From Anaerorhabdus furcosa (lineage in GTDB: Bacteria; Bacillota_I; Bacilli_A; Erysipelotrichales; Erysipelotrichaceae): DNA of 64,000 nucleotides. The translations under genes and the position numbers were made by a program. Shown here piece by piece: positions 43,282 through 48,034 of the stretch. The notes under the pieces were generated by a model, which saw only the letters and a list, made by a program, of their open reading frames with translations, searched no databases and was not told where the DNA came from. Location of the stretch: the NCBI RefSeq assembly GCF_900167375.1, contig NZ_FUWY01000002.1, positions 1-64,000 of the forward strand, in the 5' to 3' direction. How positions within the stretch are numbered: the first letter of the stretch is position 1; each line of letters opens with the position of its first letter.

Positions 43282-44148
43282 CTATTGCTTAATGAGTTCA
43301 ATGAATTTTATTGATGGTGCGGATAAAGATTTACGAGTTAAGTAAGCATATCCAATGCTACGTGTAGGAAGGGGTGGCTGAACATTGAGTTCGAAGACTT
43401 CTGTATTTAAATAACGAGAAGAAAATTCTTTGATTACACATGCAACCCCTAGTCTTTCTTTAACACATTCTAAAAGTAAGCTATGGGCTCCTAATTCCAT
43501 TTGAGGATTTAATTTGATTCCGTTCTTGGCAAATTGTTTATTCAAAAAATTACGACTATTAGAAGACTCTTCCAAAAGGATAAGAGGTAATTTTGATAGT
43601 TCTTTATATGTGTAAATTTTATCAGTGGGATTTTTACCGACAAAGATATCATGAATTAAGAAACATTCATTAAATGATAAAGAATCATCATGGATGGGTA
43701 AATTGACAAAACCTAAGTCGACCTGTCCATTTTTTAATAATTCGTAAATTTCTATACTTGTACGGTTTACTACTTTAATCGTTACATTTGGGTATAAATC
43801 ATGGAATTTAGATAAATAAGGAGTTAAGAAGAATTCACTAACACTATCACCTGCTGCCAAAACTAACTCACCTTCTTGGAGTTCACTCAAGTTTGATAAT
43901 TGGTTTTCAGCATTTGTAATGAGATTTAATGCTTGATTAATATTTTGATAAAGTAATTCGCCTTCTTTGGTTAAAGTTACCCCTTTTCTCATTCGAACAA
44001 AGAGTTGTGTTTGGAGTTCTTTTTCGAGAAGACTAATTGCTTGTGATACCGCAGATTGTGTAATAAAAAGGTTTCTGGCGGCTTCTGAAAAGGATAATGT
44101 AGTGGCTGCTTCATTAAAAATCTTGTATTGTTCTAACTTAATGTTCAT
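43282..44148 (-). CDS. LysR-family regulator
   Basis: A 288-residue regulator. The winged HTH (1-60) has TLSFSEAARNLFITQSAVSQAISLLEKEL, a textbook LysR motif. The periplasmic-binding-like effector domain (about 90-285) has GELVLAAGDSVSEFFLTPYL and GVACVIKEF. It is divergent from the CofE-like/GMP synthase pair and upstream of flavodoxin; either could be its target. GGAGAG precedes the ATG. Confidence 0.92.
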   Translation of the reverse strand: MNIKLEQYKIFNEAATTLSFSEAARNLFITQSAVSQAISLLEKELQTQLFVRMRKGVTLTKEGELLYQNINQALNLITNAENQLSNLSELQEGELVLAAGDSVSEFFLTPYLSKFHDLYPNVTIKVVNRTSIEIYELLKNGQVDLGFVNLPIHDDSLSFNECFLIHDIFVGKNPTDKIYTYKELSKLPLILLEESSNSRNFLNKQFAKNGIKLNPQMELGAHSLLLECVKERLGVACVIKEFSSRYLNTEVFELNVQPPLPTRSIGYAYLTRKSLSAPSIKFIELIKQ

Positions 44149-44256: not shown

Positions 44257-45447
44257 ATGGAAAGAAAAGTAGGTACTGTTTCTAGGGGTGTTAGATGCCC
44301 AATTATTCGTGAAAATGATGATTTAGCTAAGATTGTTGTTGACAGTGTTTTAGATGCTGCACAATGTGAAGGATTTGAGTTAAGAGACCGTGATGTTATT
44401 TCAATCACTGAATCAATTGTTGCTCGTTCACAAGGTAATTATGCAAGCATTGATGCAATTGCTGCAGATGTTAAAGCTAAATTAGGGGGAGAAACAATCG
44501 GGGTAATATTTCCAATCTTATCTCGTAACCGTTTTGCAATTTGTTTAAAAGGAATTGCTAAAGGAGCTAAAAAAGTTGTATTGATGCTTAGCTACCCAAG
44601 TGATGAAGTAGGAAATGAATTAGTTTCTTTAGACAAACTTGATGAAGCAGGAGTTAATCCTTATTCAGATGTACTTTCTTTAGAAAAATATAGAGAATTA
44701 TTTGGTGAAAATAAACATGAATTCACTGGTATTGATTATGTTGATTATTATAGCAACATTATCAAAGAAGCAGGAGCAGAGGTAGAAGTTGTATTTGCTA
44801 ATCAAGCAAAAACAATTCTAAATTACACTGACTGTGTCTTAACATGTGATATTCATACACGTGCTCGTACAAAACGTATTCTTAAAGCGGCTGGTGCTAA
44901 AGTTGTTTGTGGTTTAGATGATATCATCACATCAAGTGTTAATGGTGAAGGTTATAATGAAAAATATGGTTTATTAGGTTCTAATAAATCAACTGAAGAT
45001 AAAGTTAAATTATTCCCAAGAGAATGTAAAGATTTAGTCTTGGATATTCAAAAGAGTATTTTAGATAAAACTGGAAAACATGTTGAAGTTATGGTTTATG
45101 GAGATGGTGCATTTAAAGATCCTCAAGGTAAGATTTGGGAACTTGCAGATCCTTGTGTATCACCTGCATTCACAGATGGTTTAATTGGTACTCCAAATGA
45201 GTTGAAGTTAAAGTATCTTGCAGACAATGACTACAAAGATTTAAGTGGCGAAGCATTAAAAGAAGCAATATCAAAAAGTATTCGTGAGAAAGACAATAAC
45301 CTTGTAGGAAACATGGCATCACAAGGAACTACACCTCGTCAATTAACTGACCTTATTGGTTCATTATGTGACTTAACAAGTGGTTCTGGAGATAAAGGAA
45401 CACCAGTCGTTTTAGTTCAAGGGTATTTCGATAACTATACAAACTAA
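44257..45447 (+). CDS. CofE-like gamma-glutamyl ligase
   Basis: A 396-residue protein of the coenzyme F420-0:L-glutamate ligase (CofE) family, which joins glutamate to a substrate using GTP and divalent metal. Seen: DVISITESIVARSQGN near the N-terminus, GVIFPILSRNRFAICLKGIAKGAKKVVLMLSYPSDEVGNELVS, a TCDIHTRARTKRILKAAGAKVVCGLDDIITSS region and VYGDGAFKDPQGKIWELADP. It is longer than archaeal CofE (about 250 residues). No F420 synthesis gene or F420 enzyme is visible, so the real substrate is probably different. GAAAGG precedes the ATG. 21 bases separate it from the GMP synthase. Confidence 0.75.
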   Translation: MERKVGTVSRGVRCPIIRENDDLAKIVVDSVLDAAQCEGFELRDRDVISITESIVARSQGNYASIDAIAADVKAKLGGETIGVIFPILSRNRFAICLKGIAKGAKKVVLMLSYPSDEVGNELVSLDKLDEAGVNPYSDVLSLEKYRELFGENKHEFTGIDYVDYYSNIIKEAGAEVEVVFANQAKTILNYTDCVLTCDIHTRARTKRILKAAGAKVVCGLDDIITSSVNGEGYNEKYGLLGSNKSTEDKVKLFPRECKDLVLDIQKSILDKTGKHVEVMVYGDGAFKDPQGKIWELADPCVSPAFTDGLIGTPNELKLKYLADNDYKDLSGEALKEAISKSIREKDNNLVGNMASQGTTPRQLTDLIGSLCDLTSGSGDKGTPVVLVQGYFDNYTN

Positions 45448-45468
45448 GTTTGTAGGATGGGAGAAGGT

Positions 45469-46770
45469 ATGAAACAAGATAACATTTTAGTACTTGACTT
45501 AGGAAGTCATGATAATACCAAGATAGCACGTCTAATAAGAGATTGTGGTGTATATAGTGAAATCAAACCTCATGATATTACACCAGAAGAAATTGAAGCA
45601 TTAAATGTAAAAGGAATCATTATTAATGGTGGAGAAAATAATGTTGTTGATGGTGAAACAATTGATGTAAATCCTGCCATTTATGAACTAGGAATCCCAG
45701 TGTTGGCTGTAGGACATGAACTTGCAAAAGTAAATAATTCAGATGCATGGGCAAATACAGATGAAGAAATCAAAGAAGGTTTAAAAACATTTATCTTCAA
45801 TGATTGTGGTGCAGAAGCAAACTGGAATATGAAGAATTTTATTAATGATCAAGTTGAACTTATCCGTAATCAAGTAGGAGATAAAAAAGTATTACTTGCA
45901 CTTTCAGGTGGTGTGGATTCATCAGTAGTTGCTGCACTATTAATTAAAGCAATTGGTAAGCAACTTGTTTGTGTGCATGTAAATCATGGACTAATGAGAA
46001 AAGGTGAATCTGAAGACGTAATTGAAGTATTTAGAAATCAACTTGATGCAAATCTTGTCTACGTTGATGCAGTTGATCGTTTCTTAGGTAAACTTGAAGG
46101 TGTTAGTGAACCAGAAGAAAAGAGAAAAATTATTGGAGCTGAATTCATTCGTGTATTTGAAGAGGAAGCTCGTAAATTAGATGGCATTGAATTCTTGGCA
46201 CAAGGAACAATCTATCCAGATATTATTGAAAGTGGTACAAAAACTGCAAAAGTAGTTAAATCTCATCACAATGTTGGAGGACTTCCAGAAGATCTACAAT
46301 TCCAATTAGTAGAACCTCTATATCAATTATTCAAGGATGAAGTACGTGCATGTGGAGAAGAATTAGGATTGCCTCATGACATGGTTTATCGTCAACCTTT
46401 CCCAGGACCAGGACTTGGTGTTCGTTGTTTAGGTGCAATCACTAGAGAACGTTTAACAGCACTTAGAGAAGCTGATGCAATTCTACGTGAAGAATTCGCT
46501 AAGAATGGTCTAGATAAAAAAGTATGGCAATACTTTACAGTTATTCCTGATTTTAAATCAGTAGGTGTAAAGAACAATGCAAGATGTTATGAATACCCAA
46601 TTATCTTACGTGCAGTTAATACAATTGACGCAATGACTGCCAGTATTGAACAAATCGAATGGCCTATTCTGCTTAAGATTACAGATCGTATCTTAAATGA
46701 AGTTCCTAATGTAAACCGTGTATGTTATGATATGACACCAAAACCATGTGGAACCATTGAGTGGGAATAA
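45469..46770 (+). CDS. guaA: GMP synthase with truncated, inactive glutaminase domain
   Basis: A 433-residue GuaA, about 80-90 residues short. The ATP-pyrophosphatase (SGGVDSS at 146-152) and dimerisation domains are complete through QGTIYPDIIESG, KSHHNVGGLP, PFPGPGLGVR and the end KPCGTIEWE. The N-terminal class I glutaminase begins normally (ILVLDLGSHDNTKIARLIRD) but the nucleophile elbow GICYG is replaced by AVGHE (Cys to Gly at about residue 82). The following segment with the catalytic His-Glu is absent, jumping to FNDCGAEANW. Glutamine cannot be hydrolysed by this chain, so XMP amination should use free ammonia or another donor. The ATG at 45469 has GGGAGAAGG upstream. Confidence 0.9.
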   Translation: MKQDNILVLDLGSHDNTKIARLIRDCGVYSEIKPHDITPEEIEALNVKGIIINGGENNVVDGETIDVNPAIYELGIPVLAVGHELAKVNNSDAWANTDEEIKEGLKTFIFNDCGAEANWNMKNFINDQVELIRNQVGDKKVLLALSGGVDSSVVAALLIKAIGKQLVCVHVNHGLMRKGESEDVIEVFRNQLDANLVYVDAVDRFLGKLEGVSEPEEKRKIIGAEFIRVFEEEARKLDGIEFLAQGTIYPDIIESGTKTAKVVKSHHNVGGLPEDLQFQLVEPLYQLFKDEVRACGEELGLPHDMVYRQPFPGPGLGVRCLGAITRERLTALREADAILREEFAKNGLDKKVWQYFTVIPDFKSVGVKNNARCYEYPIILRAVNTIDAMTASIEQIEWPILLKITDRILNEVPNVNRVCYDMTPKPCGTIEWE

Positions 46771-46957: not shown

Positions 46958-48034
46958 ATGGAATATGGATTATTAGATAGTATAAGTTATAAGAAGACAG
47001 ATGATATTTTTATAGATACAAAATCTATAATTGAATCCGCAAAAAGTTATGCATATACTACGGTTAATGTTTCTTTAATAAAAAGAAATTGGTTAATAGG
47101 AAAACGAATTTTTGAAGAATGTTTACTTGGTGAAGATAGAGCGGAATATGGTGCAAATGTAATAAAAAAGTTATCGAAGAAGTTAACGGAAGAATATGGC
47201 AAAGGCTTCACAAAATCAAACTTATATAGCTTTTACAATTTTTATAAAATGTATCCAAACATTTTCCAATCAGTGATTGGAAAATTCAGAAACATTGCAC
47301 TTTCGTGGACACATTATTCTGTTCTTATTCAAGTTAATGATCTAGAAGCACGAAATTGGTATGAAAATGAAGCAATAAATGAAACGTGGAGTGTTAGAAC
47401 ACTTCAAAGAAATATTTCTTCCCAATATTATTATCGCTTGTTGAAGACTCAACAAAAAGAATTAGTTATAAATGAAATGAGAAAATTAACAAAATCATGT
47501 CAAAATGATAAGTTCGAGTTTATAAAGAATCCCATGATTGCGGAATTCTTAGGGTTTACTCCAAATAGTACTTTTACTGAGACGGATTTAGAATCGAGTA
47601 TTTTATCAAATATTCAAAAATTCCTGATGGAACTAGGAAAAGGCTATGCTTTTGTTGCAAGGCAACAACATCTTCATACTGAAAAGCAAGATTACTACAT
47701 TGACTTGGTGTTTTATAACTATATTTTGAAATGCTTTGTGTTGATTGATTTAAAAACGAATAAAATATCACACCAAGATATTGGGCAAATGGACATGTAT
47801 ATTCGTATGGTTGATGATTTGAAACGAAATGAAGATGATAATCCAACAATTGGTATAGTGTTATGTTCAGATACAGATGAGGATATAGCGAAATACTCTA
47901 TACTACATGGCAATGAACAGTTATTTGCGACCAAATACAAGCTTTATTTACCTACTGAAAAGGAATTGCGTGCTGAAATTGAAACGCAAAAAGCAATGTT
48001 TTATCTTCAAAAAAGTGAAGTTAGTAAAAAATAA
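46958..48034 (+). CDS. DUF1016/YhcG-type PDDEXK nuclease
   Basis: A 358-residue protein. The N-terminal DUF1016 winged-helix region (about 20-160) has NWLIGKRIFEECLLGEDRAEYGANVIKKLSKKLTEEYGKGFTKSNLY and LSWTHYSVLI. The C-terminal PDDEXK nuclease-like domain has FVARQQHLHTEKQDYYIDLVFYN (conserved Asp near 250) followed by FVLIDLKTNKISHQDIGQMDMYI (D-x-K). Family members often accompany restriction-modification or other defence loci; this one stands alone. AGAGGAT precedes the ATG. The catalytic pattern looks intact. Confidence 0.85.
   Translation: MEYGLLDSISYKKTDDIFIDTKSIIESAKSYAYTTVNVSLIKRNWLIGKRIFEECLLGEDRAEYGANVIKKLSKKLTEEYGKGFTKSNLYSFYNFYKMYPNIFQSVIGKFRNIALSWTHYSVLIQVNDLEARNWYENEAINETWSVRTLQRNISSQYYYRLLKTQQKELVINEMRKLTKSCQNDKFEFIKNPMIAEFLGFTPNSTFTETDLESSILSNIQKFLMELGKGYAFVARQQHLHTEKQDYYIDLVFYNYILKCFVLIDLKTNKISHQDIGQMDMYIRMVDDLKRNEDDNPTIGIVLCSDTDEDIAKYSILHGNEQLFATKYKLYLPTEKELRAEIETQKAMFYLQKSEVSKK

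Follow-up and report, generated by a model that had tools for sequence, protein, structure and literature searches.

Gene Pair and Genomic Context

The window analysed here is a stretch of 64,000 nucleotides, positions 1 to 64,000 of contig NZ_FUWY01000002.1 of Anaerorhabdus furcosa. It contains a gene for a CofE-like ligase followed on the same strand by a gene for a GMP synthetase paralogue, designated GuaA2. The features of the locus are as follows:

43282..44148, minus strand: LysR-type regulator, divergent from the ligase gene (context)
44257..45447, plus strand: CofE-like ligase (PF01996) of 396 aa; compared with F420 CofE it contains a large insert
45469..46770, plus strand: GuaA2, a 433-aa paralogue of GMP synthetase with no functional glutaminase
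45469..45717, plus strand: glutaminase stub of GuaA2, the first ~83 residues of the class I glutaminase (GATase) domain, with an AVGHE elbow
45826..46767, plus strand: ATP-pyrophosphatase (ATPPase) and dimerisation domains of GuaA2, intact, with SGGVDSS, QGTIYPDIIES, VKSHHNVGGLP and KPxxTIEWE
46489-46764, plus strand: GMP_synt_C domain of GuaA2 (Pfam match)

The coordinates, lengths and 21-base ligase-GuaA spacing given in the initial annotation are correct. The ATG at 45469 is the more likely start of GuaA2 since relatives share its MKQD start and an AGAAGG ribosome site precedes it. This start yields the 433-aa protein and the 21-base gap to the ligase gene, while the alternative ATG at 45457 would yield 437 aa. 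No Rfam RNA or riboswitch reaches the gathering score ahead of the pair in 13 loci, and a sub-threshold snoRNA match in the window is taken as chance. The pair has no PADLOC match, and a role as a defence system is rejected. No biosynthetic gene cluster is present in the GuaA2 and ligase neighbourhoods inspected. Relatives of the LysR-type regulator (about 38% identity) lie divergently upstream of the ligase gene at two other loci (L208 and L230), although GuaA2 is not adjacent there. Right after the pair is a 358-aa open frame (46958-48034, plus strand) that by eye resembles a DUF1016/PDDEXK-type nuclease.

Domain Content of GuaA2

GMP synthetase, whose product GMP is a building block of RNA and DNA, is both a drug target and a textbook case of a glutamine amidotransferase. 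GuaA2 resembles the two-domain enzyme GuaA (EC 6.3.5.2; E. coli structure 1gpm) in its complete ATPPase and dimerisation domains, its motifs and its fold, and is about 60% identical to the host's own GuaA. The two C-terminal domains, described as complete in the initial annotation, are confirmed by full matches to GMP_synt_C (Pfam PF00958, 129.5 bits versus a cut-off of 27) and guaA_Cterm (NCBIfam TIGR00884, 463 bits versus 338.75). Alignment with 1gpm and with the XMP-bound Methanocaldococcus jannaschii ATPPase subunit (6jp9) shows that SGGVDSS, YPDIIES, KSHHNVGGLP and TIEWE are retained; the GuaA2 lid begins with V where IKSHH has I. GuaA2 has both the model match above the curated cut-off and the motifs expected of a GMP synthetase ATPPase. 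In a structure search, the best matches of its AlphaFold model (pLDDT 82.7) are GMP synthetases, and the ATPPase part superposes on 6jp9 with a TM score of 0.94 by target and 51-52% identity.

The glutaminase domain is a different matter. The stub corresponds by homology to the N-terminal half of the GATase domain in two-domain GuaA and scores 57.5 bits with guaA_Nterm (TIGR00888), versus a cut-off of 172, covering model positions 1-77 of 188. In the pairwise alignment, the elbow ILGICYG of the host's full-length GuaA reads VLAVGHE in GuaA2, and the WMSHGDQ...YHPEVR segment that makes up the His-Glu half is deleted (433 versus 513 aa). About 80 residues are missing, among them the nucleophile Cys and those of the His-Glu segment, so the intact Cys-His-Glu triad of a glutamine-hydrolysing two-domain GuaA is absent; the internal shortening first read from the sequence, with AVGHE in place of GICYG and no His-Glu segment, is upheld by both alignment and HMM scores. 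GuaA2 proteins nevertheless pass the NCBIfam cut-off for "glutamine-hydrolyzing GMP synthase," a name that appears to be wrong for them.

GMP synthetases are described as two-domain proteins in bacteria and eukaryotes and as two-subunit enzymes in archaea (reviewed in 2022, PMC9312489). Like GuaA2, archaeal GuaAb (6jp9, 2dpl) is an ATPPase chain without a working glutaminase, and it is closest in size and architecture to a shorter form of GuaA2 described below. In archaea a separate GuaAa is supplied, whereas none was found in the GuaA2 genomes tested. The two also differ in origin, since GuaA2 derives by loss from a two-domain GuaA. No description of a bacterial GMP synthetase clade lacking the glutaminase was found in the open-access literature searched.

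Distribution and History of the GuaA2 Clade

Among the matches listed in the GuaA and ligase searches, from which the presence table was compiled, GuaA2 occurs in 36 of 146 genomes of the same family. Fourteen of these genomes carry a 430-437 aa stub form and 22 carry a 323-350 aa short form, which has no glutaminase domain at all. Outside the family, the short form extends to further families of the class and to Clostridia, Lachnospiraceae and Oscillospiraceae among them. In trees of the ATPPase part, canonical GuaA and GuaA2 separate with 100/100 support, and all short forms group in one clade that branches among the stub forms; the canonical, stub and short forms need two changes in total. 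The internal deletion is identical in position across all stub-form proteins. The simplest history for these trees and alignments would be a single deletion in a duplicated guaA followed by a single complete loss of the stub.

Mean identity among 20 relatives is 62% in the stub versus 84% in the ATPPase part, and the stub contains near-invariant stretches (QDxIxxLDLG, ARxIR and YSEI). Judged by this conservation, the stub is maintained though it evolves faster than the ATPPase part. The single clade, common deletion and conserved stub bear out the initial view of GuaA2 as a maintained variant and not a product of decay. A 323-aa open frame in another genome (G181:C21:14800-15729) has GMP synthase similarity only at the canonical level (383 bits) and is possibly an independent glutaminase loss.

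The host genome (2.41 Mb in 11 contigs, 95.7% complete) also encodes an intact 513-aa GuaA on the same contig (about 65.23-66.77 kb), some 18 kb downstream of GuaA2. GuaA2 is therefore a paralogue in this host and not the sole enzyme. Cultured members of the group (Beduini, Thomasclavelia, Longibaculum, Breznakia and Amedibacillus) likewise carry canonical GuaA besides GuaA2. The initial annotation had proposed that a second complete guaA, together with absence of this copy from relatives, would argue against a conserved system. The second gene exists, but GuaA2 is widespread in relatives and is often their only GMP synthase.

GuaA2 as the Only GMP Synthase

At least 35 genomes have no GMP synthase other than GuaA2. 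Twelve of them are at least 90% complete by listed values, and most of these sole-GuaA2 genomes are probably metagenome assemblies. Each of G056, G010, G065 and G097 has one GMP_synt_C gene, which encodes GuaA2, and GuaA searches identify GuaA2 as the sole enzyme in G002, G014, G026, G068, G119, G121, G138, G586, G189, G305 and G372. The same holds for 24 of the 50 genomes reached through ligase loci.

A separate GuaAa subunit, which the initial annotation proposed to look for, was not found. None of 35 sole-GuaA2 genomes contains a GuaA-type glutaminase above the TIGR00888 cut-off, versus all 14 control genomes, and 14 of the 35 have no TIGR00888 match at 1e-8; the search rested on this one HMM, which a non-homologous or diverged trans-acting glutaminase could escape. 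A separate GuaA-type glutaminase was also not found in four further genomes. The archaeal two-subunit arrangement, with GuaAa encoded elsewhere in the genome, is thus absent from the sole-GuaA2 genomes tested. No glutaminase gene is conserved beside GuaA2 in the neighbourhoods compared.

Genes for IMP dehydrogenase lie just upstream of guaA2 in nine loci (L033, L034, L038, L044, L048, L049, L060, L064 and L065). The five tested all belong to NCBIfam PRK07107 (918-975 bits) and fall below the cut-off for the ordinary IMP_dehydrog model. In G121 and G026, where GuaA2 is the sole enzyme, a PRK07107 IMP dehydrogenase (918-935 bits) is encoded at most three genes upstream, and the gene order in G107 is guaB-cofE-guaA2. 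This suggests that the PRK07107 type is a distinct GuaB that travels with GuaA2. Four genomes of 97-99% completeness (G016, G052, G055 and G066) have no GMP_synt_C gene and presumably depend on guanine salvage; G052 and G066 retain the CofE-like ligase.

The CofE-Like Ligase

The ligase belongs to the PF01996 superfamily (194 bits versus a gathering score of 25, model positions 1-218 of 218), which includes F420-0:gamma-glutamyl ligase CofE and the N-terminal domain of FbiB (2phn, 7uld). It differs from F420 CofE in length (396 versus ~250 aa), in its large insert and in scoring far below the equivalog cut-offs (39.9 versus 180.65 bits for TIGR01916 and 44.6 versus 274 for NF009809). About 190 of its 396 positions are invariant among 48 homologues, with a mean column identity of 87%. 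No solved relative was found by sequence, even with a profile of the 48 sequences, and the fold search alone reached CofE: the first Foldseek match of the model (pLDDT 74, with a weak C-terminal third) is Archaeoglobus fulgidus CofE (2phn), with a probability of 1.00 and an E value of 4e-4 but a TM score of only 0.30/0.44.

The genomes also contain a second PF01996 family of short paralogues, about 230-260 aa (L252, at G000:C6:6486-6944, and L240-L251), with strongly conserved GMPETM, IDGP, DINDLGGNILG and KDNPLGQ motifs. In a comparison aimed at catalytic residues, alignment of the ligase with the small (~240 aa) paralogues is limited to the N-terminal 51-57 residues.

Chlamydia FolC2 (CT611, COG1478) is a CofE-family ligase of bacteria without F420 that replaces folylglutamate synthase (PMC1971073). 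A normal folC gene is present above cut-off in 14 of 14 genomes here, so a role as FolC substitute is ruled out and the Chlamydia precedent does not explain the ligase. No folate genes are prominent in its neighbourhood.

Association of the Ligase with GuaA2

The association between cofE and guaA2 is real, recurrent and non-obligate. The ligase gene is directly upstream of guaA2 on the same strand at 25 of the 69 loci fetched that extend far enough downstream; the loci are the closest 80 of at least 575, and the rate holds for near relatives. No Pfam family occurs more than three times among the 113 other neighbours, which occasionally include purA (two loci) and purC (read by eye). Adjacency is seen with both GuaA2 forms, and in Erysipelotrichaceae, Coprobacillaceae, Lachnospiraceae, Oscillospiraceae and others; recurrent pairing, which the initial annotation proposed to score across genomes, is supported. 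On the ligase tree it is scattered, with 14 changes by parsimony, only two of them forced by well-supported branches.

The two genes also tend to occur together at the level of the genome. GuaA2 is clearly present in 41 of 50 genomes with close ligase homologues and probably in two more. Within the home family and with kinship ignored, the ligase is found in 28 of 36 genomes with GuaA2 versus 30 of 110 without it (Fisher p 1e-7), and in good genomes in 21 of 26 versus 20 of 75. Eight of the 36 family genomes with GuaA2 have no ligase (G015, G022, G050, G068, G071, G078, G104 and G126; four rechecked), and the ligase-bearing G052 and G066 have no GMP synthase of any kind. Because each gene occurs without the other, the pair is not an obligate two-subunit enzyme. 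The idea that a sole GuaA2 needs the ligase was not sustained, as the comparison (14 of 15 versus 25 of 34, p 0.15) shows a trend only.

Proposed Function and Alternative Explanations

The reading that we consider probable is that GuaA2 is an ammonia-dependent GMP synthetase and that its CofE-like neighbour is a separate ligase and not a subunit of it. That GuaA2 would be a working GMP synthetase is supported by its motifs and fold, by its being often the only candidate in the genome and by its IMP dehydrogenase neighbours. Dependence on ammonia is suggested by the lack of a GuaA-type glutaminase together with published work on glutaminase-deficient enzymes. The C89A mutant of Plasmodium falciparum GMP synthetase no longer has glutamine activity but still forms GMP from NH4Cl, and the ATPPase domain on its own is active on ammonia with a 5.9-fold lower kcat (PMC4673825).

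GuaA2 is thus predicted to form GMP from XMP, ATP and NH3. The ATPPase domain would adenylate XMP using ATP, and free NH3, in place of channelled glutamine-derived NH3, would then displace AMP. Probably the conserved stub serves to stabilise or cap the ATPPase domain, since in a two-domain enzyme that domain on its own remains active but is slower. Most likely, the ligase is an enzyme in its own right, a gamma-glutamyl ligase using GTP or ATP within the purine or folate metabolic neighbourhood, and is presumably co-expressed with GuaA2 where the genes adjoin. Where canonical GuaA coexists, GuaA2 might act on a different substrate or only under certain conditions. The ammonia-rich gut may be the reason for the loss of the glutaminase. 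Carbamoyl phosphate synthetase I and NH3-dependent NAD synthetase, although different enzymes from GuaA2, are precedents for ammonia dependence in which the glutaminase is dead or absent. A large group of gut bacteria depending on a glutaminase-less GMP synthetase would alter the view of guanine nitrogen supply.

An ammonia-only GuaA2 leaves the adjacency of the ligase without explanation. The two proteins might instead form one unit in which the ligase or its gamma-glutamyl product supplies or meters nitrogen, or gates GuaA2 by GTP level. The same-strand adjacency in several families, the co-occurrence of the genes and the guaB-cofE-guaA2 cluster of G107 all favour such a unit, but the occurrence of either gene alone and the non-significant link between sole GuaA2 and ligase presence argue against it, and we regard it as unlikely. 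In CofE enzymes, glutamate is attached to a phosphorylated carboxylate with no release of ammonia (PMC10861534), so nitrogen delivery by the ligase would require new chemistry; no evidence was found for the initially proposed supply of nitrogen by the ligase or its product. The companion proposal, that the stub is a docking domain for the ligase, is also unlikely since the stub-less short form adjoins the same ligase; the stub may have a regulatory or structural role instead. A broader version, in which GuaA2, the ligase and in some genomes the PRK07107 IMP dehydrogenase constitute an alternative pathway by which gut Bacillota convert IMP to GMP independently of glutamine, with the ligase acting on GuaA2 as nitrogen supplier or GTP-sensing regulator, is speculative and we think it doubtful. 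If true, it would give the CofE ligase family a role not known for it. The recurrent adjacency is a first functional lead, toward purine metabolism, for a very conserved and unexplained ligase family of gut Bacillota.

GuaA2 might still use glutamine through a glutaminase acting in trans, such as a TrpG/PabA-, PurQ- or CarA-like protein, just as archaeal ATPPase-only GMP synthetases work with a separate GuaAa. Class I glutaminases of TrpG/PabA size (95-115 bits) are present in G596, G623 and G636. The empty GuaA-type glutaminase searches and the lack of a conserved glutaminase neighbour make such borrowing improbable. There is similarly little to recommend the idea that the substrate of GuaA2 is a modified or analogue nucleotide, which it would aminate before the ligase acts further along one shared small-molecule pathway. 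GuaA2 forms its own clade, marked by fixed differences (for example CVHVNHGLMRKGE and TPKPxGTIEWE versus CMFIDHGLLRKGE and SKPPATIEWE in canonical GuaA), and often coexists with the canonical enzyme, but the XMP-site and lid motifs are intact, the neighbourhoods contain no biosynthetic gene cluster, many genomes have no other GMP synthase, and in some GuaA2 adjoins IMP dehydrogenase.

Despite the intact canonical gene 18 kb away and one clearly broken copy elsewhere, the notion of a pseudogene or decaying guaA duplicate is rejected for the family by conservation, given the long open frames in about 60 sequences, the conserved ATPPase part and stub and the replacement of the canonical gene in many genomes. 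The broken copy (G102:C83, L047 3737-4587) is interrupted by stop codons and split into two fragments, and its genome has kept canonical guaA.
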